A DNA stretch of 39,725 nucleotides, from the IMG/VR virus record IMGVR_UViG_3300017987_000181, positions 1-39,725 of that record. One strand, written 5' to 3'. The notes under the pieces are model-generated. The model was not told the origin of the DNA and did not search any database. It was given only the letters and a program-made list of their open reading frames with translations. The DNA is from a virus. Position numbers and translations under genes: made by a program. Below are positions 2,061 through 37,538 of this stretch, piece after piece (position 1 is the stretch's first letter; every line of letters starts with the position of its first letter).

Positions 2061-4064
2061 ATGAGCAGCATATTAGTTTTAAGTTCCCGTATGCAGGGCC
2101 TTCAATTAGAAGACACACTTGAGATTACATCTCCAGAGTGGACTCCTACTGCTGTGTATGAAACTGACACAACTCAGAATGGTACATATAATTCAGAGCC
2201 AGCTTATGAAGGTAGCGGCTATTGGATTTTCAAGTCTGATAAGTATTGGTGCAAGTCTACAGCTAAGACAAATAATTACTGGGAAGCCGATGTAGTCTCT
2301 CTTCAGCTTGGTGGACATGGAGGTAACTTAGGTGATGGAACTGTTTTCGATATTGTAACAACAGACGGCACACATAATTACTGTGACAGTATCCACTTCA
2401 ATCAAACCGCTTCCTTTGATGATATTGACTGTGATGAATGTTACATCCTACCTTACTTAATTATTGACAGTACTACCAATACTCTTGAGTTCAACACGTT
2501 CGGAGATATTGCATCTAGTCTAACTGTTTTCGTTGGTAGAGATTGTAAAATTGCTTTCCCTTCTACAGGAAATCAAATTAAATCTGAATACGGTTTTCTA
2601 ATTGGTGGAAACACGACCAACTACTCAGTGTCAATGAACTATGCAGATAATGATTTTGCAAGTGGAACAAGATTGGGTGTTGCAGGTAACTGCCAAACTC
2701 TTAATGCTATTGGACAAGCTAACTCTGTTTGTCAGCTTCAAGCGGATTACATTACACCTTCAAGTGGCACAAGCGTAAATGCCGATGAAGTTGTCTATGA
2801 TAATAACTATGTTCGAACCGGTGTCGAACATGGTATCTCTTCTTTTATGTCAACTGCTGAAGGGCTCTTTCCTGCCAGCCCGAATACAGGTGATCTGTAT
2901 TATGAAGAAGGTCGAAGAGCGTTACTTGTTTATGGTGGTGACCAATGGTTAGTACCAACTGAAGCTTTTCCTAAGTATGGTAGTGGTGACTGGGACTCTT
3001 TCAAATTAGCTTGGGGTAAAGTTCTGCCTAGATATGCTAGTGTTCAATTTGCTGAACCAAAGATAAGTGAACTCAGTGGGACCTACGGGTCTGCTTCTAG
3101 TATAAGGTGGCAATGTCATTTAACACTTTCAGATGGTAAAGTACTATCTCTTCCGCTTAATGAAACAGAAGCATTGCTAATTGACCCTGACGACGATTCA
3201 GTTTCCACTATAAATTTCTCCGGTAACCAAACAGTTAGAGCCGCTGCATTGTATGAGGATTGTGTTTATGCTTACAGTGAAACAGCTTCGGAAATAATAA
3301 AATTTGACCCCAGTGATAACTCCGTTGTACAATGTACTAGTAATATGAGTGGAACATATTACGGCGGGATTTTATTTAATGCTCATATTTACTTTACACA
3401 AGAGACGCCAACTCATGTAATTAAATTTGATCCAAATGATAATTCAACTGAGACTATAAACTATAGTGGTAATACTTTTTCACCTAACACAACTGTAAAT
3501 ATGTGCTTAGCAGCAGACAACTGTATGTACATATTGCCATACAGAACAAATGACTTCATTATAAAATTCGACCCAAGTGATGAGTCTTTTGAAGAAATTG
3601 ATATTGACTTATCTTCTGTCAATACGGCGGATAAACATTGGGGTGGTTTTCTTAATGGGCCAGATGGAGTTATGTATATTACTCCTACAACTAGTGGCCA
3701 TGAAGGTGCATATTATAATCCATTTACCGGGGAGTGGGGTGAATTAACTGGGAACACCGCTCCTACAAATGACGGATACGTTATGGGTGTATCTCATCCA
3801 AGCGGAAAATTACTATATGGTCCAGGCGGCGATAATGATGCTATTTTTATTATTGATCCAAATACTAAAGTAGGTGAAACAATTGTTAAGCCAGCTGGTC
3901 TTACGGCTGCTCAGCGGCAAATTCAACTGGCCGGTAATGGACATATATACGGAATACCAGCATGGCACGGCAACACTGACCCATTAACTATCTGGAAAAT
4001 AGAACTTGGCGAACCAATGCCACTTGATTATAACTTTTCAACCTCTATCTATATAGACGCATAA
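2061..4064 (+). CDS. Putative virion protein with C-terminal beta-propeller, copy 2
   Basis: The 667-residue product is a paralogue of the preceding gene. Both share the NG-T/Y...AYEG...YW motif in the first 80 residues and a linker motif (GDLYYEEGRRALLVYGGDQW here) before the repeat domain. The propeller-like repeats are clearer in this copy: I-x-KFDPSDNS, VIKFDPNDNSTETI and IIKFDPSDESFEEI recur about every 45-55 residues from about residue 370 to 640. Such repeats are typical of six- or seven-bladed propellers that bind sugars or proteins. The gene ends on TAATG, sharing bases with the portal start, so the two are translationally coupled. Function in host attachment is inferred from fold and composition only; the central part (about residues 100-280) is unrecognised. 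Confidence 0.62.
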   Translation: MSSILVLSSRMQGLQLEDTLEITSPEWTPTAVYETDTTQNGTYNSEPAYEGSGYWIFKSDKYWCKSTAKTNNYWEADVVSLQLGGHGGNLGDGTVFDIVTTDGTHNYCDSIHFNQTASFDDIDCDECYILPYLIIDSTTNTLEFNTFGDIASSLTVFVGRDCKIAFPSTGNQIKSEYGFLIGGNTTNYSVSMNYADNDFASGTRLGVAGNCQTLNAIGQANSVCQLQADYITPSSGTSVNADEVVYDNNYVRTGVEHGISSFMSTAEGLFPASPNTGDLYYEEGRRALLVYGGDQWLVPTEAFPKYGSGDWDSFKLAWGKVLPRYASVQFAEPKISELSGTYGSASSIRWQCHLTLSDGKVLSLPLNETEALLIDPDDDSVSTINFSGNQTVRAAALYEDCVYAYSETASEIIKFDPSDNSVVQCTSNMSGTYYGGILFNAHIYFTQETPTHVIKFDPNDNSTETINYSGNTFSPNTTVNMCLAADNCMYILPYRTNDFIIKFDPSDESFEEIDIDLSSVNTADKHWGGFLNGPDGVMYITPTTSGHEGAYYNPFTGEWGELTGNTAPTNDGYVMGVSHPSGKLLYGPGGDNDAIFIIDPNTKVGETIVKPAGLTAAQRQIQLAGNGHIYGIPAWHGNTDPLTIWKIELGEPMPLDYNFSTSIYIDA

Positions 4065-5875
4065 TGGAAAAATTAAACATAACCCAAATTAGGCACCCTT
4101 CTGTTTCCACAATGTCACAGACATGGTGGGATTGGCGTCGTTGCTATGAGGGTGGAGATGAATATGTTTCTTTCTACCTAAAGAAATTTACAGCAAGAGA
4201 GGAGCTTTCTGATTATAATACACGGAAAGATGTTACTCCTATTCCAGCCTTTGCTAAAGCTGCTGTGAATGACATTAGAAATTCCATTTTTCAGCGGATG
4301 TCTGACATAGTTCGAAAAGGTGGATCGAAGTCTTACAAGAAAGCTATTTTAGGTCAAGACGGAGGTGTAGACCTTAAAGGCACACCTATGAATGCCTTTA
4401 TGGGTATTGACGTCTTAACAGAACTTCTTGTAATGGGTAAGGTAGGTGTTTATGTAGACATGCCTAAAATAGTGGGACCGACTCTGGCTGATACAGTCGG
4501 GGCTAGACCTTACTTGTACTCGTATAAACGTGAAGATATTCTGTCTTGGGAGGAATCAAGGCCAGGAGAACTCGGTCAATTTCGCGCAATCCTTCTACGA
4601 GACTACGCAACAGAATATAAAAGTGTATATAGAGGTCTCTCGTTGCCTTGTGATGGTTTTGAGAGGTTTAGGTTAGTTTGGAGAAGTGATGAAGACGACT
4701 TAATTTATTACCACTTCTACAACAAAGAAGGCGATCCAGTAGACGAAAAGGGAAATCCAGCTACTTTCGAACCTGTTCCACTTAACTTGCCAGAGATACC
4801 CTTCACTATTTTAGATATTGGAGACTCACTACTTACAGATGTGTATAAGCATCAAATAGCTCTTCTTAATCTTACTTCAAGCGATATTGCTTATGCTTTA
4901 AAGGCTAATTTTCCATTCTATGTTGAGCAAAGAGACTTTAATAGAATTGCCCCCAGCCATCTAAAGCCTAGTACAAATCCCGATAACCAAGGAATGGCAG
5001 GTGACCAACGAGCTAGTGATGCTGAGATCAAAGTAGGCGCTTCACATGGCAGAGCTTATGATATCAAGGCCCAAGCTCCAGAATTCATTCATCCTAGTTC
5101 TGAACCACTTAAAGCATCAATGCAGCTTCAGGAAAAGCTGGAAGATGAAATTCGAAAGCTAGTCAACTTAGCAGTAGCTAACAAAGTAGGCCACCGCGCT
5201 AAAAGTGCTGAGGCTATGAAACTTTCTGACCAGGGTCTTGAAGCTGGCTTATCTTATATTGGCTTGGTTCTTGAAGGTGCAGAGCAAAAAATTACAAAAT
5301 ACTGGGCTGCATACGAAAATGTTAATGTTTCTAAGCAAGAAATTGCCCTCGTCAAATATCCAGACCGATACTCTTTAAAAGATGATAAAGATCGAATTGA
5401 CGAATCTGAAAAATTAGCAGAACTTGCATACACAATTCCTGGAGAGACTTCAAAACGAGAACTATACAAGATCATAGCTAATAAATTACTGGGTGGGAAA
5501 ATTGATTTAGATCAATTGGAGAAAATATATGCGGAAATAGACAAAGCCGCGTACACAACGTCCGACCCACAAGTCATCATTCAAGCTGTTCAAGCTGGCC
5601 TCTGTGGGGAAAAGGTTGGGTCAATGGCTTTAGGGTTTGGAGAAAACGAGTATAAACAAGCGAGAAAGGACCACGCCGCAAGAATCGCAAGAATCCAAGA
5701 AGCTCAAATGTCTCCTGACGAAAAGAATCCTGCTGCCCGTGGTGTGCCTGATCTTGACCCTGACCCAGAATCAGGTAAAAAAGAGCGAGAGGCGGCAACT
5801 GAGACAACTATGAAAGAAACAACCCAACCTCCTGTAAGAGGAGAAGGAAAAGAAAAAAAAGGAGAAAATGACTAA
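4064..5875 (+). CDS. Portal protein
   Basis: The 603-residue product looks like the portal, the dodecameric ring at the capsid vertex through which DNA is packaged and to which the tail connects. The N-terminus has the WxxWRRCYEGGDEYVSFYL pattern followed by PIPAFAKAAVNDIRNSIFQR, typical of the DUF4055-type portal family, and the length fits. The long helical segment around residues 355-420 (EKLEDEIRKL...KSAEAMKLSDQGLEAGLSYIG) matches the stem/crown helices expected in portals. The last ~50 residues are charged, Pro- and Glu/Lys-rich and probably disordered. The start overlaps the stop of the previous gene (TAATG), and the stop overlaps the next small gene by 8 bases. Scaffold and coat genes follow, which supports the call. 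Confidence 0.85.
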   Translation: MEKLNITQIRHPSVSTMSQTWWDWRRCYEGGDEYVSFYLKKFTAREELSDYNTRKDVTPIPAFAKAAVNDIRNSIFQRMSDIVRKGGSKSYKKAILGQDGGVDLKGTPMNAFMGIDVLTELLVMGKVGVYVDMPKIVGPTLADTVGARPYLYSYKREDILSWEESRPGELGQFRAILLRDYATEYKSVYRGLSLPCDGFERFRLVWRSDEDDLIYYHFYNKEGDPVDEKGNPATFEPVPLNLPEIPFTILDIGDSLLTDVYKHQIALLNLTSSDIAYALKANFPFYVEQRDFNRIAPSHLKPSTNPDNQGMAGDQRASDAEIKVGASHGRAYDIKAQAPEFIHPSSEPLKASMQLQEKLEDEIRKLVNLAVANKVGHRAKSAEAMKLSDQGLEAGLSYIGLVLEGAEQKITKYWAAYENVNVSKQEIALVKYPDRYSLKDDKDRIDESEKLAELAYTIPGETSKRELYKIIANKLLGGKIDLDQLEKIYAEIDKAAYTTSDPQVIIQAVQAGLCGEKVGSMALGFGENEYKQARKDHAARIARIQEAQMSPDEKNPAARGVPDLDPDPESGKKEREAATETTMKETTQPPVRGEGKEKKGEND

Positions 5876-7832: not shown

Positions 7833-9230
7833 ATGCTTAATTTTCGATTTTATGCTAACGACAATGATGCCTTGGTCCCTGAGATTTGGGCACAAGAAGG
7901 TCTAATCCAGTTAGAAGAGAACATGGTTATGTCTCGACTGGTTTACCGGGATTTTGAAATGGATGTTGCCAACTATGGTGATGTTGTAAATACTAGAGTT
8001 CCCGGTGATTTCAAGTTCTACCGTAAGGCTCAAAGCGATACGGTTACATCGCAAGATGCAAGCCTGACAAATGTTGCTGTTCCTCTTGACCAGCATATGT
8101 ATGTCAACTTTATTATTAAGGACGAGGAAGCATCTAAGTCTTTCCAAGACCTTGTTGATGTCCATATCACTCCTGCTGCCAGGGCAATGGCTCGCGGAAT
8201 TGATCGTGTTCTCATTGGTCAGACGCCTCAATTCCTTACCAACTATGCCGGAAAGCTTGAAACGATGAATAGCACGTTGGCTAAGGGTTACATGCTCGAC
8301 GCCCGCGAAAAGCTTAACAACAACAACGTTCCAATGGAGAATCGCAATTTGGTTCTCTGCCCAAGTGCGGAAACGCACATGCTTAATACGGAACTCTTTA
8401 CCGCAGCCAATCAACGTGGTGACGACGGTACGGCTCTTGAAGAAGCGATGCTCGGACGTGTTCTTGGCTTCAATACATACATGGACCAAAACACTGGTGA
8501 TGTTAGCTTGGGTTCGGCCGACTATCAATCTGGCAATATTGATGCAGCGCAGGCCGCAGGTAACGGTTCTGTGAACTTTGCCATTAACACTGACGCTAAC
8601 TATGAAGCAACCGCCGGAGAGTATATCTGGATTGCTGGTGAAGGCCACGCAATGACGCTCAACAGTGTTGCAACCGGTAACAGCACGACTGAAGGTATCA
8701 CGGTAAGCCCGAACTTTGTTCATGGCTGTGATGCAAACGCTGTTTGCCGAATCTTTAAGAAGTGTGCAGTTCAGGGCGATTTCACTTCTGGTTACGATAA
8801 AGCCCTCACTTTCGATGGCTACAACAAACCGCCACAAGCTGGGCAAATTGTTTCATTTGGTACTGGTTCTAGTCGCCATACATACACGATTATTCAGACA
8901 TATGTGAATTCTTCTAATGCAAGCGCTTACGATGTCTGGCTTGATCGTCCGCTTTCGGCAAATGTTTCTGATAATGACGATGCCTTTATGGGCCCATCTG
9001 GTGGTCACAACCTTGCATTCCATCCGCATGCTATGGCTCTTGTTTGTCGTCCACTAGCACTTCCTGGAAACGCACTTGGTGTGCAATCCGGCTTGGCCGC
9101 TTACAACGATCTCGCGATGCGTGCAACGATGCAGTACGACATTAGCTATCAGGGTACTCGGGTTACGCTCGACCTGCTTGCCGGTGTCAAGGTTCTTAAT
9201 ACAAGCCTTGGCTGTATTCTCTGGAGCTAA
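7833..9230 (+). CDS. Major capsid (coat) protein, P22-like HK97 fold
   Basis: The 465-residue product matches P22 coat-type proteins. It opens with a short N-arm and PEIWAQEGLIQLEENMVMSRLVYRDF, then GDVVNTRVPGDFKFYRK, a VDVHITPAARAMARGIDR spine-helix region, and a C-terminal GLAAYNDLAMRATMQYDIS...TLDLLAGVKVLN segment typical of this family. The section around residues 240-330 probably forms the insertion domain. Codon choice differs from the neighbours (many CGT/CGC, AAC and GAC codons), as expected for the most abundant protein of the particle. A strong AAGGAG lies 5 bases before the ATG, and a perfect 11-bp hairpin terminator follows. Together with scaffold and portal it forms the shell. 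Confidence 0.9.
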   Translation: MLNFRFYANDNDALVPEIWAQEGLIQLEENMVMSRLVYRDFEMDVANYGDVVNTRVPGDFKFYRKAQSDTVTSQDASLTNVAVPLDQHMYVNFIIKDEEASKSFQDLVDVHITPAARAMARGIDRVLIGQTPQFLTNYAGKLETMNSTLAKGYMLDAREKLNNNNVPMENRNLVLCPSAETHMLNTELFTAANQRGDDGTALEEAMLGRVLGFNTYMDQNTGDVSLGSADYQSGNIDAAQAAGNGSVNFAINTDANYEATAGEYIWIAGEGHAMTLNSVATGNSTTEGITVSPNFVHGCDANAVCRIFKKCAVQGDFTSGYDKALTFDGYNKPPQAGQIVSFGTGSSRHTYTIIQTYVNSSNASAYDVWLDRPLSANVSDNDDAFMGPSGGHNLAFHPHAMALVCRPLALPGNALGVQSGLAAYNDLAMRATMQYDISYQGTRVTLDLLAGVKVLNTSLGCILWS

Positions 9231-10650: not shown

Positions 10651-11406
10651 ATGGCAGCTATTGAACTGCGAGATACCACTATCTATTTTCGAGATGGTAC
10701 AACTGGTAATGCTGTAATTGAGACAGCAGCACCGGATGCCAACGATACTACGGTCAATATTAACACAGTAAACATCCCAGAAGCAACAACAACTAATTTG
10801 GTTCCTGTCGGTGCTCGGTTTACTGTCAACACGGCAAACAACTCAACCACGTATACAGTTACTGGTCGTGATCCCGCTTCGACTGGCCCTACTACTTGTA
10901 TTACATTCACGCCCGCTTGGACGGCTAATGCACCGGCCACGGATGACGTGATTACCTTTACCTCGCAGCAAGTTGAAGTTAAGGTTGGCGAAGGAAACCT
11001 AACTTGGACTGAAGCTAAAGAATACGAGTATGTTCTCGACCGAGGAAACTTGGACACTGTTCGAGAAGGTGACGAGCAGCCTGTTGAAATTTCTCTAGAC
11101 TTCATGTTTGAACATGTCACGGCTGGAACAGGTGAAGATATCACCGTCGGTGATGCTTTGCGAAAAACTGGTAATGCGTCTGAATGGATCACGTCCTCAG
11201 AGGACACATGTGAACCATACGCTGTTGACTTAGTTGTTTACCGTTGCCAGTCTTGCGGAACAACTGAGGACGATGTATTTATGTTCAACGATTTCCGATG
11301 GGAATCGCTTGAGTATAATGTTGGCGACGCAACTATTTCCGTATCTGGTCGCTGTAACATTAGCACAGTTAATGCCACACGAAGTGACGCTGACGAGTGC
11401 TCGTAA
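10651..11406 (+). CDS. Major tail tube protein
   Basis: The 251-residue product is predicted to be the tail tube subunit. It is Thr/Val/Ala-rich beta protein, with a central KVGEGNLTWTEAKEYEYVLDRGNLDTVREGDEQPVEISLDF segment and a C-terminal strand-rich part. The stretch from RGNLDTVREGDEQPVEI onward matches tube proteins of long-tailed phages, where such strands line the lumen. The codon choice resembles the capsid gene, and a terminator hairpin follows, both signs of very high expression. It lies between tail terminator and chaperone genes, the canonical location. Residues 30-100 may be an added surface-exposed segment. Confidence 0.78.
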   Translation: MAAIELRDTTIYFRDGTTGNAVIETAAPDANDTTVNINTVNIPEATTTNLVPVGARFTVNTANNSTTYTVTGRDPASTGPTTCITFTPAWTANAPATDDVITFTSQQVEVKVGEGNLTWTEAKEYEYVLDRGNLDTVREGDEQPVEISLDFMFEHVTAGTGEDITVGDALRKTGNASEWITSSEDTCEPYAVDLVVYRCQSCGTTEDDVFMFNDFRWESLEYNVGDATISVSGRCNISTVNATRSDADECS

Positions 11407-11470: not shown

Positions 11471-11998
11471 ATGCGTATCAATGGTATCGAAGTTAATGGA
11501 CCTAATGAGGAAATTCTTGTTCTTCCTCGAAAGGATCAAAACATTGTCTTTCGGGCAACAGCCCTAAAATCTTTCGATGAATTCGACGCTTTGGTGCCCC
11601 TACCTAAGGCACCTGGTTATAGAACGAAAGATGGTTTTAAGGAGAATGAAAACGATCCAACTTATCGCCAAGCAAAAGAACAGTATGACCAAAAACGTTT
11701 TGCTTACTTGGTTGTTGTCTCGTTGGAGCCGAGCGAGATTGAATGGTCTGAAGTGGATATCAACAATCCGCGAACTTGGATGAAATGGCAAGATGAATTT
11801 AAGGAGGCTGGGTTCAGTGAATTTGAACTCGGACGTATCCAGCAACTTGTACTGCAAGCTAATGCCCTCGACGAAACAAAACTTGAGGAGGCGCGAAAAA
11901 GTTTTTTGCTTGGGGAGGAGCAGGCGCTGCAAGAAAATACTTATTCCCAAAGTTCAGAACAGGAGAGTACGCCATCTGGCGCGCCTGCGAACGACTAG
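11471..11998 (+). CDS. Tail assembly chaperone, short form (gpG-like)
   Basis: The 175-residue product sits between tail tube and tape measure, where long-tailed phages encode chaperones that coat the tape measure during tail assembly. It is acidic, with helical segments (PRTWMKWQDEFKEAGFSEFELGRIQQLVLQANALD). The section ending ...ARKSFLLGEEQ carries a T TTT TTG slippery heptamer at 11902-11908. Normal decoding goes on to a low-complexity tail (QENTYSQSSEQESTPSGAPAND). A -1 slip instead produces the long form described separately. AAAGGA precedes the ATG. The arrangement parallels lambda G/GT, but the protein itself was recognised by context, not sequence identity. Confidence 0.8.
   Translation: MRINGIEVNGPNEEILVLPRKDQNIVFRATALKSFDEFDALVPLPKAPGYRTKDGFKENENDPTYRQAKEQYDQKRFAYLVVVSLEPSEIEWSEVDINNPRTWMKWQDEFKEAGFSEFELGRIQQLVLQANALDETKLEEARKSFLLGEEQALQENTYSQSSEQESTPSGAPAND
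11902..11908 (+). promoter_or_regulatory. Programmed -1 ribosomal frameshift site T TTT TTG
   Basis: The heptamer fits X XXY YYZ and is in phase with the chaperone reading frame (AGT TTT TTG CTT). After a -1 slip the ribosome reads GCT TGG GGA and continues for 78 codons. A small GCAG-GCG-CTGC hairpin (11920-11930) lies 11 bases downstream; it is weak, so stimulation of slippage may depend on a larger structure. Confidence 0.85.
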
Positions 11999-12144
11999 GA
12001 ATAAAACCCCCAGGAGTAAAAGATTCCTGGGACTCATGCCCTGTTCATATACAGGCAAAAATTTTAGCTTTTGACCAAGTAAGAGTACACGATGAAAGTG
12101 ACGTGCCTACTGGAAGCGCCAAAACTGGACGCAAACAGGTATAA
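11908..12144 (+). CDS. Tail assembly chaperone -1 frameshift extension (gpT-like part of GT fusion)
   Basis: This reading frame has no start of its own. It is reached by a -1 slip at 11902-11908 and runs 78 codons to TAA at 12142-12144, giving a fusion of about 224 residues (146 shared plus 78). The extension reads AWGGAGAARKYLFPKFRTGE, then YAIWRACERLGIKPPGVKD, then SWDSCPVHIQAKILAFDQVR. The pattern of LGI-PPGV.D.W...Q..ILAFDQVR resembles the second part of tail chaperones of other siphoviruses. Its last 53 bases overlap the next gene in a different frame. The short form supplies chaperone copies; the long form is thought to bind the tube protein. Confidence 0.82.
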   Translation, partial: AWGGAGAARKYLFPKFRTGEYAIWRACERLGIKPPGVKDSWDSCPVHIQAKILAFDQVRVHDESDVPTGSAKTGRKQV

Positions 12145-12616
12145 GAAAGAGCTTGCCAAATATATGACAGCAAAGCTCAAAGAGGCTATTCGAGCTTGGC
12201 TAAAAGCTTCTATTGAAGTTGTTCCAACTTGGTCTGGTGCTTCCAGAGCTACTTTTGAAAAACTTGCCAGATTAGGAGATATGGTTATTGAATATGGCCC
12301 GCAAAAATCTTACAAGAATAGAAAACCTCTAGGTAGAAAAGAAAGTTCGGCCAAAGTATCAATAAACGAAAGTTCTGGCAAGTTTTATTTTGAATGGGGT
12401 ACAAGTTTACAGTATTTCATCATAAATAATTTTGGAGCTCAGCAATATATCCCAAGAGAACAGGCTCCGGCTAATAATAATATTATTAGTCCAAAAGGCT
12501 TGAAAAATCCAGGGCCATACCGAATCGAAGATAGAGGTAAAAAAGCAGTGGAAGAACTAAAAATCACTTTACCAAATCCATCGATAGCTATGACCGCTAG
12601 ACGGATAAAGGTCTAA
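12092..12616 (+). CDS. HK97-gp10-like tail/neck component (putative)
   Basis: The 174-residue basic product resembles HK97 gp10-like putative tail components. The pattern includes LKEAIRAWLKASIEVVPTWSGASRATFEKLA, then VIEYGP, FYFEWGTSLQYFIINNFG and a C-terminal GKKAVEEL helix. These proteins are usually found among connector and tail completion genes. Here it lies between chaperone and tape measure, and its first 53 bases overlap the frameshift extension. The ATG at 12092 has only a weak ribosome binding site (AAGAG), so translation may depend on ribosomes ending the GT fusion at 12144 or restarting nearby. A later start cannot be excluded. Confidence 0.55.
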   Translation: MKVTCLLEAPKLDANRYKKELAKYMTAKLKEAIRAWLKASIEVVPTWSGASRATFEKLARLGDMVIEYGPQKSYKNRKPLGRKESSAKVSINESSGKFYFEWGTSLQYFIINNFGAQQYIPREQAPANNNIISPKGLKNPGPYRIEDRGKKAVEELKITLPNPSIAMTARRIKV

Positions 12617-12618
12617 TT

Positions 12619-15600
12619 ATGGATTTTTCACAAAAATTCAATTTTGATGCTTCTCAAGCTATCGCAACTATCAATAAGCTAAATAAGTCTTTAAAAAGTT
12701 GCGCTGTTGCTCTCGATAAGCTAGCTGCTTCTGCCAAAAGAGTTAATGCCGCGCTTCAAAGTGGTGCTCTTGCTTCTTATGCTGCTAATGCCAATAAAGC
12801 AAGCCAAGCTACAAAATCAATCGGAAGTAATTCTGCTAGAGCAGAACAATCTGTAAGCAGATTAAAAACCCGTGTCGATACGGCACATAAAAGTCTTGGC
12901 CATATGCACGGTTCAGCAGGAAAAGCTTCAAAAGGCATATCAGCCTTAGGCAAGGCCGCAACACTTGTTGGTGGTATACTAGTTGGACAATTAGCTTTCC
13001 GAGCTGTAAGTGCTGTTATATCTGCTTTTCGAGAAGCTTTTACATCCGCCGTCGAACTAGGAAACGCCTTGGCCGAAGTTCAAACTATCGGGCAAAATAT
13101 GCTTGGAAGCTATGATGCATTAACCTCAAAAGTCATAGAATTATCTAATGCGTTTGGAAAATCAGCACAGGTCACTGCTGAAGGTCTATATCAAACACTA
13201 TCTAACCAAGTAGTCGAAGCAGGCGAATCTTTTGAATTTCTAGCCACTGCGCAAGGTCTAGCCACTGTTACAGCCTCCTCAACAGGTGATGCTGTAAATG
13301 CTCTTTCATCAGTATTAAATGTTTATGGCCAAGAAGCTGGAACAGCATATGAGATCTCTAGCAAACTGGCCAAAACTGTTGAACTCGGTCGATTACGTCT
13401 TGGCGAAATGGCTAATAGCCTTGGTAAAGTCTATCCATTGGCCCATGCTTTAGGTATCTCTTTTGAAGAGGTGATGGCCGCTCTCGCTACAATGACGAGA
13501 CAAGGTACAAAAGCCAACGTTTCAATAACTCAGCTACGCGGTGTCTTCTTGAAATTGGTAAAACCATCTGAAGAGATGGAAGCAATCTTTCGCAAATGGG
13601 GCGTTGAAACTGGTCAGCAGGCTATTGAAACTTTTGGTGGTCTTGGTGGTGTCATCCAAAAGCTTACCGAAGAAACGGGCGGTTCGTCGGTCGAGATGGC
13701 AAAATTGTTCACCCGAGTCCGTTCTATGGCGGGTGCTCTTGCCATCAACACAAAAGAAGGACGAATGTATGCAGAAACTCTTAAAGCTATCAGGGACGAA
13801 GCTGATTTCTTAAATGAAGCATTAGATAAAATGTCTCAATCTCCAGCGAGACAATTATCTTTGGCTTACAATGAAATGAAAAACTCTATGATAGCCCTGG
13901 CTAAAGAGTTTATTCCATTTGTAACCGCTTTAGTAAAAGGTTTCACTAGTGTTGTTGAAGTCATCAACAACATGATATCGGCCCTTGAAAAGGGGTACGG
14001 CTATTTTCAAAAAATTAAACGGGAAGCGTCCGAAATGTCCGTAGACGCTTTGTCTGCGACAATAGAAAATACCAAGGGCGCAATAGAATCTCTTTCTACT
14101 TCTTGGAGTAGCTTCGTAGATTCGGTTCCACTAGTAGAAAAAGCTTTAAATGTTGTATCTGGAACATTTGAAGCAGTTTGGGTCACAATGAAAGCTGGCG
14201 TTATGTCTGTATATAATGCCTTTGTATCCCTACACGATTATTTAATGCAGTTCAAGTCGGCAGCATTCGTCATAAAAACTGTTGCAACTGCTATGAATAT
14301 TCTTTTGACTGGAAGTAAGAGAGTGGTTCTAGCCATAGCTGGAATAGCTCATGGTATATACACAATTCTAAAACCGGCGTTAGAATTTGTTGCTGATTAT
14401 TTATGGGCGATTGCGCCAGGAATTAAAATAGTGGTGGAGATTGTCCGCTTTTTTGAGAAAGCTTCTTCAGATGCAGCTAGTAGCTTAACTGGATTCAATG
14501 CTGAATTGCAGCAATTCCAAAGAACTCAGGAGGAAATAACGAGAGCAAGACAATGGAAACAATATTGGGCTTCATTTAAATCAGAAACAGAGTCTAGTTT
14601 ACAAATAATTGCGGCTTGGTCAAGAGCATGGGATGCTGCGCCGGACAGTGTCGGCAGAGCAATCAATGAAATTGTAATAGAAGTAGAAAGTCTTGAAGGC
14701 TCTGTTTCAGGTGAAGCTAAATCAATGCAGGAAGCTTTAACTGAAGCTTTTGAAAGGCCGAAGACAGCGTTGGAAAAACTTAATGGTATGATGCAAAAAG
14801 GCAAGGATGCCATGGTAGAATATCAAAGGTCTCTTGAACTTTCAAAATTAGATGGGTGGCGAAAAACACAATTAGAGGCAAGCTACGCCTTAAAGGATTT
14901 CAATGATGCTGTTGATGAATTTAATTCGAATCCACCAGACTCTAAAGCGGCTGAAGAGGCGTATTCAAAAGGTATTTCAAGTTTTAAAAAATTAACCCGT
15001 GAAACAATAAAACTTCAAGACCAAGGAAAAACCAACTTGGCAAAAAGTTTTCAATCGCAAGCTGTTAGACTTCATGGAGAGTTGCAAAATTCTGCCAAAG
15101 TATTTGAAACTTCCGCGCAAAACACACAGAAAACTTTAAACAGTGTTGCCGGTAAAATGGCGACATTAGACTATAAAAAGCTTATAGCTGCGGCGGATGC
15201 AGTGAAAAAGAACTCCATCGAAGCTATTCAAGAGCTTGGGGATATGTCAAAAACTCAACGTGATGCCGCGATAGAGAGCATTACAAGGGAGTTAGACGAT
15301 GTTATACGTCAAATAGATAGTATATCCCAAAAAGAGTGGGAGCTGCTATTTAAAGTGAATCCAGACTTAGTGTACGCTGCTCTAAATAAGAGAGACTACC
15401 TAATAGAAGTAAGAACATTCTTGGAAGAACAAGCTGGGAAAAAAATAGATGCGAGCATAAAAAAGCAAATCGGAGATGCCTATAGATTAATAGTTGAAAT
15501 GGAGGGTGAAAAAGCTGGACAGGATTTCATAGCTTTTATTAGAAAATTAGAGTCTCAAGGAATTATCACCAGTGAACTAGACCTTAGTGCGGATTCACTA

Positions 15601-17313
15601 AGAGCCGCGTTTACGGAATATAATAACTTCCAGAAAAAAATCGCTGAAAATAAGCAATTAACACAATCTCTTGAGACACAATTCAAAGAGGTCCGTAGCA
15701 AATGGAATGAAACTCTTGCTGGGTTGAATAATTTGCCCGCCATTAAATTAAATGTAGATTATGGCAACTTTGACCAAATAGCCATAAAAGGAAAAGAGAA
15801 CATAGATCAACTTATGGCTATGGCTCAAGAGGCATCAATGCGGATTCAAGCTTCTCTTAGAAGCGGAGAGCCAATAAAACTATTTGATCTTAAAGTCTTA
15901 GAAAAATCTGTGACTCATTTAAGGTTAAGTGGGCAGCTAACAAGCGAGGAATATGAAAAACTTAAAGCTGTAACTACACAAGCTAATCTGCTAGCAGGTG
16001 CGCAGAATAATTATAACGGCTCCGTGCAAGCTGGTTTGCATTTACAACAACAACAACAAGACAAAATTCAAGGTTTAACTACTGGAACGCAACAAGCTAC
16101 TACTACAACTACTGCGCTGAATAGTGGCTTCACTCAAGTTAGTACTAGTCTCGATGGTGTGAATAGTAAAATAGGAGTACTACCCGGTAAAGTAGACCAA
16201 GTGAATAGTCGGTTGAATACAACAGCAACGACAAATATAAGTCAGCCACTTGACAATTTTTCCAACGCCACGACAAACACAAAAACACAACTCGGCAATT
16301 TAAAATCCGGTCTACAAACTGTAAATCAGACAAATATTTCTCAGCCACTAGTAAACTTTGCAACTCAGTCAAGAGCAGCTATTGGTAGTGTGTCTATTGT
16401 TATGTCTGAATTAAATAGCCAGATCACTGCAATAGTTTCTGGTCCTTTAGCTGGTTTGGTTCAAGGAATAGCATCTATAAATCCAACTGGGATTGTTACT
16501 TTCACACAAGCGGCAATTCAATTAAGCACACTTCTGCCTGTTGTTGCCGAAAGCTTGTACTCAATGTCAGAAACTTCAGGGTTACTGGCAGATAACTTTC
16601 AACGGGTTGGAGAATTTCAACCACCAGATTTATCTAATTTAAGTGAACAAATTAGTCAAATAGCTACAAAAATAGGAGAAGCATCCACTGCTTTAATAGA
16701 TCGCTTCATCCCTAATATAAATAAAGTTCCGCCAGAAGTTAAAAAAATAGGGGATGCTTTCAACCCAGTTAAGGATAAAATAACTGAAACTGCAACATCA
16801 CTCGCTAGTAATTTCTCAAAGGCAATAAGCTCGGTTTTAAGAAATTTTGGGACCATGATGGGTGCAATAGGATCAGTCGCAAGAGCAATTGGCTCTTGGC
16901 CGAGAGCTGTGGCCACTATTTATCCTGCTATTCGAACAGCTATTGGCTTAATGAAGCAATTAAAAGGGGCCGCTGAAGAAGCTTTGCTGGCAGCACAACA
17001 GGCATCAGCCGCATCTAAAGCTAGATATGGTAAATATTTCGCGGCGGGCGGCTCTAATCGTGGACAAGACACGATACCTGCTCAGCTATCAAAGGGTGAA
17101 TTTGTAGTAAATGCCGATGCCACTAGAAAGTTTTATTCCGAATTGGTCGCCATGAATTCTGGTGCCAAACCTTCTTACCACAGTGAAGGTGGAAACACAA
17201 CAATCGGTGACATACACGTACATGTAAATCAACAAGAAACTGAAAGACAAACGGTGCGAAGTATCGCGTCAGAACTAAAACGAGAAATTAGAAGAGGTAC
17301 AATTAAACTATGA
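12619..17313 (+). CDS. Tail tape measure protein
   Basis: The 1564-residue product sets tail length and is injected with DNA. An N-terminal helical region (1-110) with Lys/Ala/Ser-rich repeats is followed by a TP901-type core (about 130-400) with AFREAFTSAVELGNALAEVQTIG and TRQGTKANVSITQLRGVFLKLVKPSEEM. A long helical middle follows, with hydrophobic segments around 500-610. Residues 1130-1260 are Thr/Gln/Asn-rich, with a QQQQQ run and repeated TNISQPLxNF motifs. The C-terminus has AAGGSNRGQDTIPAQLSKGEFVVN, a hallmark of tape measure proteins. By the usual 1.5 Angstrom per residue rule, the tail would be roughly 230 nm. No peptidase motif is apparent. Its stop overlaps the next ATG (ATGA). 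Confidence 0.95.
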   Translation: MDFSQKFNFDASQAIATINKLNKSLKSCAVALDKLAASAKRVNAALQSGALASYAANANKASQATKSIGSNSARAEQSVSRLKTRVDTAHKSLGHMHGSAGKASKGISALGKAATLVGGILVGQLAFRAVSAVISAFREAFTSAVELGNALAEVQTIGQNMLGSYDALTSKVIELSNAFGKSAQVTAEGLYQTLSNQVVEAGESFEFLATAQGLATVTASSTGDAVNALSSVLNVYGQEAGTAYEISSKLAKTVELGRLRLGEMANSLGKVYPLAHALGISFEEVMAALATMTRQGTKANVSITQLRGVFLKLVKPSEEMEAIFRKWGVETGQQAIETFGGLGGVIQKLTEETGGSSVEMAKLFTRVRSMAGALAINTKEGRMYAETLKAIRDEADFLNEALDKMSQSPARQLSLAYNEMKNSMIALAKEFIPFVTALVKGFTSVVEVINNMISALEKGYGYFQKIKREASEMSVDALSATIENTKGAIESLSTSWSSFVDSVPLVEKALNVVSGTFEAVWVTMKAGVMSVYNAFVSLHDYLMQFKSAAFVIKTVATAMNILLTGSKRVVLAIAGIAHGIYTILKPALEFVADYLWAIAPGIKIVVEIVRFFEKASSDAASSLTGFNAELQQFQRTQEEITRARQWKQYWASFKSETESSLQIIAAWSRAWDAAPDSVGRAINEIVIEVESLEGSVSGEAKSMQEALTEAFERPKTALEKLNGMMQKGKDAMVEYQRSLELSKLDGWRKTQLEASYALKDFNDAVDEFNSNPPDSKAAEEAYSKGISSFKKLTRETIKLQDQGKTNLAKSFQSQAVRLHGELQNSAKVFETSAQNTQKTLNSVAGKMATLDYKKLIAAADAVKKNSIEAIQELGDMSKTQRDAAIESITRELDDVIRQIDSISQKEWELLFKVNPDLVYAALNKRDYLIEVRTFLEEQAGKKIDASIKKQIGDAYRLIVEMEGEKAGQDFIAFIRKLESQGIITSELDLSADSLRAAFTEYNNFQKKIAENKQLTQSLETQFKEVRSKWNETLAGLNNLPAIKLNVDYGNFDQIAIKGKENIDQLMAMAQEASMRIQASLRSGEPIKLFDLKVLEKSVTHLRLSGQLTSEEYEKLKAVTTQANLLAGAQNNYNGSVQAGLHLQQQQQDKIQGLTTGTQQATTTTTALNSGFTQVSTSLDGVNSKIGVLPGKVDQVNSRLNTTATTNISQPLDNFSNATTNTKTQLGNLKSGLQTVNQTNISQPLVNFATQSRAAIGSVSIVMSELNSQITAIVSGPLAGLVQGIASINPTGIVTFTQAAIQLSTLLPVVAESLYSMSETSGLLADNFQRVGEFQPPDLSNLSEQISQIATKIGEASTALIDRFIPNINKVPPEVKKIGDAFNPVKDKITETATSLASNFSKAISSVLRNFGTMMGAIGSVARAIGSWPRAVATIYPAIRTAIGLMKQLKGAAEEALLAAQQASAASKARYGKYFAAGGSNRGQDTIPAQLSKGEFVVNADATRKFYSELVAMNSGAKPSYHSEGGNTTIGDIHVHVNQQETERQTVRSIASELKREIRRGTIKL

Positions 17314-28000: not shown

Positions 28001-29012
28001 AAAATATAACTGTGATGAAACCGGCCAAGAAATAAGCTGCGACTATTACTGTAAGGGAGTTCAAAGTGGCTCAAGAAGCGTGACCCAAACTATTATGAGC
28101 GGGTTTAAAAATTTCTCCAACCATAGAACGGCTCTTCCTGGAATGTGCTCTGGAGATGGAAAAGAAGTAAGAGACTACTTGACAAGCACGGGTCAAATGA
28201 GTTTTGGTGGCACCACAACATTTGACGTTAAGGTAAATAAGACAACAGGTGAAGTAAAAGTTAAGCTAAAACTTTTCCCTGAAACATTCAAAGAACTTTA
28301 TGATAATGTTCAAGATGCATATGCCACAACAGCGTTTCAAGATGCACTAGTGGCAAAATATGGCTACCATAAAGCTGTTGAAATTTTCACACAGAACAAG
28401 TATTCTACTCAAGTAATGCCTGATGGTGCGATTGTTTATATGTATAATGGAGACATAATCTACAGAGATACAAGCTTAATTTGGATGGGGGCTATGTGGA
28501 ATGTTAAAGAGTACTACGATTACTACGGCTCTCCAAGAACTGATCCAATGATATCTGAGTTGCAGGCCACAGAAACTACTTACTATATTAAGAACCCACA
28601 AGACCCAGAGTCAGAATGGAAGTACAGCATGACTCCTGGCCCAAATTACAGAGAAGCGGTTGATTATGAGAATCAATTATATTATGTCTGGAACCCACAT
28701 GACCCAGTTGATCAATGGGTTGTTCATTCAAGCCCCCCTCCTGGAACAAGTGATCACTATTATGATGTGTCTGGAAGCAGGCTTCTTACGAAAGATAACA
28801 ACTCGTCAGCTTTTATGGGCGAGGTCACTAGTGAGCTTGGTGAAGGAGCAGTGAGTAATGTATATGTGTCATCAAGTCACCCAATTCAATATGCAATTGT
28901 CGAGATGCCAGTTGATATAAATAGTAAAGTGTTCAAAGACCCAAGAACATCTTTTTCCGTTGGTGTGGGTTTAACAGATTTAGTAATCCCAACAAGTCCC
29001 TATCAATACTAA
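25005..29012 (+). CDS. Tail hub-like protein, paralogue B, with Cys-rich C-terminal half
   Basis: The product is 1335 residues from ATG 25005, preferred over GTG 24999 because AAAGGA (24991-24996) is then at normal spacing and the start overlaps the previous stop as TAATG. Residues 1-740 are paralogous to the 21248-24220 protein: FWPLIFGTVSG, GGIFQGYFSGNTFTIQGRVHP, LVPGVVFRVLGYK, VDVIEWIINLYTDLNIDEESF and IKDIAYQSRCALNIWDNTFYIHYL. A 12-bp DNA repeat then gives an Asp-rich RDYDRDYDWDRY run. A section around residues 885-1050 has about 25 cysteines. The C-terminal ~280 residues are a separate unrecognised module. A central tail spike or host-contact protein is likely. Confidence 0.62.
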   Translation: MRPLSSDFERYISKKQALDVSYAFDIHWDDGVTSYSDSDFVSEIRVDWVENDIIPGGSFSCDISLNLEPDFFRDRKIIGARVDLYLKVKDQREFIGTGKISSPIEYRNKVLNFTVFSQYDDHIIDPSAVDIFPEIKNSKLDKFWPLIFGTVSGSPCVKLSSSIIGILESDEAIADYTLEPRMEQVKEIACPYVQTRAYGEGTMASLDVACLEARENEYCKLEYSLQEQKSQEHKSFEVTNGQNFPQNTPYEINIEGGIFQGYFSGNTFTIQGRVHPLKNYLGEVQSKELPPVEVQFVDPFDLEKGCEVEVPQAYTYYGTEYQKANKLISDIYDFCQDSNDCWMTETKNSYLLNLDTGKPNYNYVLPKVTDDLEALGVYYQLVESVNHHNLITQILAADRTVTEYYNMKIAGRFTAPAGSSFSLAGAGPIFLASLVPGVVFRVLGYKKSTCSHPGKLVEIPDSNYEIREVDYGDFTGVEIHFNKPLEQISECLGDEVCVDFESDVGPNPVDVIEWIINLYTDLNIDEESFAYVKSKLEKYPIGFTLQEKISAFQLIKDIAYQSRCALNIWDNTFYIHYLSEKPSSCLTIDSSKIYQGYNITTSDVVSTKEIVTWKNTYAPRKDTDPKENKFFIEQNVDEYGLIPHESKYSCLNLKNNVQKSATFWFIRDSNAWKFVTFKGPLSLLKLNIYDGVYFEPLDVICVVTNISVEVDGITLTLWTPIRFGENEEYYWAWPANKSENKIFDLNYTPLLVPPSTHPFFISGNYARDYDRDYDWDRYPSDRGDSIQEWKFFFYDFDDVDCWIGGEGYWEGDETDPDGYDYEDNPFDIPHGGYNDGGGDTNDEELVDSGNNVFGRPYVPYVDDQQAQYRRPEDDIEDREQELEQSGDCWFWHYVFKVTCDYPYCFQKGPCEKQNCLCGPMCCIYSDDLICEVEMFSDCQTNMSQWLSNHYNSGALAAKCKGQQAILDVQPTPSESTQSCCDLPHMMWKTTDTCTSLSGQKYNCDETGQEISCDYYCKGVQSGSRSVTQTIMSGFKNFSNHRTALPGMCSGDGKEVRDYLTSTGQMSFGGTTTFDVKVNKTTGEVKVKLKLFPETFKELYDNVQDAYATTAFQDALVAKYGYHKAVEIFTQNKYSTQVMPDGAIVYMYNGDIIYRDTSLIWMGAMWNVKEYYDYYGSPRTDPMISELQATETTYYIKNPQDPESEWKYSMTPGPNYREAVDYENQLYYVWNPHDPVDQWVVHSSPPPGTSDHYYDVSGSRLLTKDNNSSAFMGEVTSELGEGAVSNVYVSSSHPIQYAIVEMPVDINSKVFKDPRTSFSVGVGLTDLVIPTSPYQY
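27303..27338 (+). repeat. 12-bp tandem repeat in hub gene B
   Basis: CGGGATTATGAT is present twice in a row (27303-27314 and 27315-27326), followed by a degenerate third unit. It encodes RDYD RDYD WDRY just before a YPSD-x-GD motif shared with hub paralogue A, so the repeat was added at the edge of a conserved segment. Confidence 0.8.
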
Positions 29013-37456: not shown

Positions 37457-37531
37457 CTGTGTGTAGCTCAGCTTGGCTAGAGCGCGGCGTTTGGGGCGCT
37501 GAGGTCGGAGGTTCGAATCCTCTCACACAGA
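37457..37531 (+). tRNA. tRNA-Pro(UGG)
   Basis: The 75-base cloverleaf has acceptor CTGTGTG/CACACAG (37457-37463/37524-37530), T8-A9, D stem GCTC/GAGC, and anticodon stem CGGCG/CGCTG around TTTGGGG with anticodon TGG at 37492-37494. The T arm contains GGTTCGAATCC. Discriminator is A37531 and CCA is not encoded, so host CCA addition is needed. The UGG anticodon serves CCA/CCG/CCT codons. Confidence 0.95.
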
Positions 37532-37538
37532 CTAAATT

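Follow-up and report, generated by a model that had tools for sequence, protein, structure and literature searches.

In phage lambda, the genes for a tail protein, G, T and the tape measure protein follow one another in this order, and a −1 frameshift near the end of G leads from gpG to gpGT, with T being made only as part of the fusion (PMC5009743). Single-tetramer sites of the Z_ZZN type, including U_UU.U and U_UU.C, are also shift-prone in E. coli and are exploited by insertion sequence (IS) elements (PMC4066793; reviewed in PMC5009743); in E. coli, such tetramers required a downstream pseudoknot for measurable shifting (PMC4066793). The stretch of viral DNA analysed here (39,725 nucleotides, the window from now on) contains a locus that is very probably a tail assembly chaperone pair of the lambda G/GT type joined by a −1 frameshift. 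This reading, already put forward in the earlier note, is based on the constant −1 relation between the two frames, the phase of the putative shift site, selection acting on both frames, the lack of an independent start for T, the gene order and a distant homology with a gene pair of the Slashviruses and of the phage MaeS.

The G-type open reading frame (11471–11998, plus strand, 175 residues) starts with the ATG at 11471 and ends with the TAG at 11996–11998. The heptamer TTTTTTG at 11902–11908, the T_TTT core of which occupies positions 11902–11905, is in the correct X XXY YYZ phase relative to that ATG and is separated from the G stop codon by 29 sense codons, in line with the approximately 30 codons previously indicated. 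In the −1 frame, stop codons are absent from 11887 to 12141, and the TAA is found at 12142–12144. The T extension (11908–12144 with its stop codon, plus strand) comprises the 78 codons from 11908 to 12141, which would add to 146 residues of G in a fusion of 224, and the T frame overlaps by 53 nucleotides the gene starting at 12092. All these coordinates and lengths, as first reported, were confirmed on the sequence. Most ribosomes would read the 0 frame and produce the 175-residue G protein, while a minority may slip by −1 on T TTT TTG, where tRNA-Phe is predicted to re-pair perfectly on the overlapping TTT, to yield the 224-residue G−T fusion. The heptamer T TTT TTG is not one of the strongest bacterial ones. 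If the two parts act as in lambda, the tape measure protein would be bound by the G part and the major tail protein recruited by the T part, which would make the G : GT ratio important for tail assembly.

The position of the pair, between the genes for the probable major tail protein and for the tape measure protein, fits this assignment. The upstream gene (10651–11406, plus strand), a homologue of which precedes G in 66/66 other loci, is considered to encode the major tail protein from its position and size and from a weak match with a tail PHROG (E 0.0027). The tape measure gene (12619–17313, plus strand) was recognized through matches with PF10145 (E 1e-24) and with several PHROGs of tape measure proteins, and its homologue lies downstream of T in 58 of the 66 loci. 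The locus is similar to that of lambda in its gene order, in the −1 overlap near the end of G and in a T that lacks a start of its own. It differs in that T TTT TTG is not lambda's site, in that no sequence similarity to the G/GT proteins of lambda and N15 could be detected, nor any significant fold match (N15 GT, E 0.35), and in the presence of an extra gene between T and the tape measure gene (12092–12616, plus strand), which lambda-like phages do not have. A homologue of this gene follows T in 30 of the 66 loci, as determined by tblastn. Its 174-residue product, which gave no match in Pfam and PHROG, belongs to an unnamed, fast-evolving family (alignment A3) with invariant P45, G81, N112 and P142 among 18 sequences. 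Elsewhere in the window, a P22-type coat protein is encoded at 7833–9230 (PF11651, E 1e-24), alongside a long-tail module with a tape measure gene, and a single phage-encoded tRNA-Pro(tgg) is found at 37457–37532.

How often such an arrangement would occur by chance was estimated from the −1 frame of 18 further genes on the plus strand of the window (9,115 codons), in which 10.9% of the codons are stops. The longest open run in this background is of 74 codons and none reaches 85 (0 in 9,115 codons); the probability that the −1 frame stays open for 47 codons past the G stop is approximately 0.005, and for 85 codons approximately 6e-5. The heptamer alone is weak evidence, because one in the correct phase is expected 0.16 times per 37-codon overlap, i.e. 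about once in six, and it is conservation that decides.

When the T product was used in tblastn searches of IMG/VR, 99 relatives were found, and 80 of them, along with a further locus (L002), were read for the relation between frames. A −1 frame left unconserved in related genomes, which the earlier note had indicated as the observation that would speak against a frameshift, was not encountered: T is conserved, each of the 80 relatives read has its T frame at −1 to an open G frame that lies upstream, and the position of the shift aligns across them. A repeated scan of the viral sequences with a T profile returned an almost identical set of contigs, while the G protein as the query detected two viral loci, one near-identical to the window and the other being L002 (57% identical). 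No relative was found by tblastn with P0001 and P0002 among 50,697 cultured phage records. A scan of genomes placed the G/T pair on one contig, in an Anaerolinea MAG (L084), with GTT TTT CTA as the site; the contig may represent either a prophage or a phage binned together with the MAG. After the shift site, G ends either 6–10 or 27–36 codons on, with nothing in between, and both length classes are found across the family.

The shift site was analysed in 61 non-redundant loci, with the codon use of each locus as the expectation. The base preceding the Phe codon is T in 61/61 loci (21.9 expected; z 10.8, a value that, like the other z-scores, overstates the independence of loci sharing ancestry, with no effect on the contrast with neighbouring codons), even if the amino acid encoded there varies. 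The Phe codon itself is TTT in 59 loci (27.1 expected), with T_TTC in the other two, and none of the codons from −45 to −2 exceeds a z of 3.8. Coding in the T frame does not explain these biases, because both sites are synonymous and lie 5′ of the shift. It is this constraint on synonymous sites, at the same place in all the loci, that locates the predicted shift on T_TTT.

A tandem-slippage heptamer of the X_XXY_YYZ type is not kept family-wide, being found in phase in 37/61 distinct loci and absent in 24 (approximately 40%). In 34 loci, it takes the canonical T_TTT_TTN form, with TTA, TTG or TTT as the next codon, and in three more it is an A AAT TTN one codon earlier. In the 24 loci that lack it, the next codon is CTA, CTT, ATA, ATG or GTA, or the Phe codon and its neighbour read TTC TTA, and T TTT (in one case T TTC) is retained before an NTN codon. 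The slip site indicated in the earlier note is present and in phase in the window, but the exact heptamer is not universal, and what the family conserves is T TTT with an NTN codon after it. A Z_ZZN tetramer, on the other hand, is found at the shift site of 61/61 loci, where slippage by one tRNA alone may be sufficient. For the heptamer-less loci, the sequences suggest single-tRNA slippage on U_UUU, which is the simplest reading because in most of them a −1 step would leave the A-site tRNA poorly paired. The family members with CTN, ATN or GTA carry just the kind of core that is known from the Z_ZZN shifting of IS elements; they differ from the latter in that the gene is that of a phage tail chaperone and the codon that follows is mostly NTA.

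At the third position of the A-site codon, A is found in 54 of 60 cases (14.3 expected). The bias cannot be considered purely mechanistic, because this position is at the same time the first of a T-frame codon specifying a small residue, so that mechanism and coding are confounded. In the loci with CTA, this codon makes up approximately 9% of the Leu codons, but 18 of the 21 CTN choices at the site, which partly supports an explanation in terms of rare codons. In a phylogenetic tree, the window and L002, both with the heptamer (SH-aLRT 99), are placed within a lineage that is mostly CTN, and the distribution of the heptamer entails at least three changes, on a tree with weak deep branches. From this pattern it may be proposed, tentatively and as somewhat less than an even choice, that the obligate element is slippage of tRNA-Phe on U_UUU rather than the tandem heptamer, that the following NUA codon (UUA, CUA, AUA or GUA) is selected as an A-site codon that is read slowly or bound weakly, and that lineages would have switched between tetramer and heptamer with the GT fusion being kept.

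Two types of stimulators were considered. In the window, a Shine−Dalgarno-like GAGGAGG (11885–11891, plus strand) ends 10 nucleotides 5′ of the heptamer, with a calculated duplex energy of −12.2 kcal/mol versus the −6.4 kcal/mol expected from synonymous shuffles, and may act as a stimulator in this phage only. As a conserved feature such an element was rejected, the family mean being −5.75 kcal/mol versus −5.17 kcal/mol in synonymous shuffles (mean p 0.48). Conserved structure downstream of the site was also discarded, since mean z values of −0.85 to −1.45, compared with −0.2 to −0.5 in controls, are too small to name one.

The run of T residues raises the question whether the two frames are joined by the RNA polymerase, through transcriptional slippage, rather than by the ribosome. 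A run of six T's is indeed found in the window, as in 34 of the 61 loci; however, many relatives have just four or five (as in ACT TTT CTA and GAT TTT CTA) and keep the same T frame. Moreover, RNA polymerase would require neither the constant codon phase of the run nor the bias in the third A-site base, both of which are observed, so that transcriptional slippage is regarded as very unlikely.

That T is translated as a separate gene, from a start codon of its own inside or after G, would agree with the fact that the T frame is a conserved coding frame and that overlapping genes are common in this genome. In the stretch that belongs to T only, the T frame is under purifying selection, with a dN/dS of 0.184 (one pooled estimate from 36 moderately diverged pairs that share sequences and are not 36 independent values) and an excess of changes in third positions. 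The same stretch read in the other two frames gave values of 1.3 and 1.65. The value for G (0.183), a protein for which 64 sequences were aligned (A2), is equal to that of T, and both frames are under selection at the protein level. The earlier description of the −1 frame as protein-like is borne out by this comparison of codon positions in the two frames. However, neither the window nor 60 of 67 distinct loci have an ATG, GTG or TTG in the T frame 5′ of the conserved core, and therefore T must come from a fusion. An independent T gene would also not explain why the shift site, which lies 5′ of T, is constrained, and its existence appears extremely improbable.

It is hardly credible that the coding content of 11999–12091 resides in a +1-frame ORF instead of T. 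The stretch had been described as left non-coding by simple gene calls, which is not strictly correct since a mechanical ORF caller lists there a 93-residue ORF with an ATG in the +1 frame (11793–12074), but this frame is not kept open in relatives, in most of which stop codons interrupt it within a few tens of codons, and frames other than T show dN/dS values greater than 1 in this region. Finally, that a single chaperone gene was split by an indel or a sequencing error, as the single −1 offset joining both halves might indicate, has a negligible probability, given that the 80 relatives read, many of them less than 70% identical, all share this offset at an equivalent position of the alignment, and that the same sequence recurs on a second contig belonging to the window's phage.

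With the G/GT-type frameshift as the preferred reading, the relation of the two proteins to known families was considered. Pfam, PHROG and PDB were searched with single proteins, with members of the family and with profiles, and no significant match emerged, nor was any significant sequence or fold match obtained with proteins named tail chaperone, several insignificant fold matches bearing the name tail assembly chaperone. A Foldseek search of predicted viral structures with the AlphaFold2 model of G (pLDDT 89.7) led to one significant match, the uncharacterized U5Q195 of Bacillus phage Staley (E 9e-4, 152 residues), while a fold search with the T model found no match. U5Q195 is taken to be Staley_49, because, between the two 152-codon Staley ORFs in the region, it alone aligned with the G profile. 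Staley_49 is a member of phrog_16455, also the only, weak, PHROG match of the window's G (E 0.11), and the out-of-frame ORF that follows it belongs to phrog_17856, also a weak match of one member of the T family (E 0.012). Comparison of the profiles with the Slashvirus/MaeS pair by hhalign gave E values of about 1e-3 and 5e-4. These scores are modest, but the homology is credible because the G and T halves separately point to the same gene pair.

The similarity to this phrog_16455/phrog_17856 gene pair of the Bacillus phages Staley, Slash, Stahl and Stills and of Microcystis phage MaeS consists in the fold match and motif of G and the motif of T. In those that were checked (Staley, Stills and MaeS), an in-phase heptamer, A AAA AAC, is followed by an unannotated T continuation in the −1 frame, of the type YxxYIxLDICExYxxNP, which aligns with YAIWRACERxGIRPP of the present family. 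The Slashvirus/MaeS pair differs in being distant, in the A-type heptamer and in its annotation as hypothetical, and in Staley several genes separate it from the tape measure gene. The homologous pair, annotated as hypothetical, is found at 28120–28769 of the Staley record (L165), 1001–1650 of that of Stills (L167) and 4001–4644 of that of MaeS (L166). In the Stills record, the label ‘tape measure chaperone ... frameshifted product’ has been given to a different pair (from 2135 of L167; homologues of Staley_52/53) and may be misassigned. The interpretation in the earlier note is supported by the conservation of the −1 frame and by a gene position that fits a tail chaperone. For the resemblance of T to known second chaperone halves, as originally suggested, no match with a named family was obtained, and the nearest cultured relatives are labelled hypothetical.

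The phage G/GT frameshift is of a kind already known, while the protein family described here is not, and has no Pfam or PHROG assignment. Frameshift finders that rely on heptamers only would miss approximately 40% of its members. The 61 natural shift sites, with an invariant U_UU but differing A-site codons, are well suited to asking whether one or two tRNAs re-pair in the frameshifting of bacterial tail chaperones. A likely function is now available for two families of proteins without annotation, which occur in at least 67 distinct loci of uncultured phages and, by distant homology, in the Slashviruses and a cyanophage.
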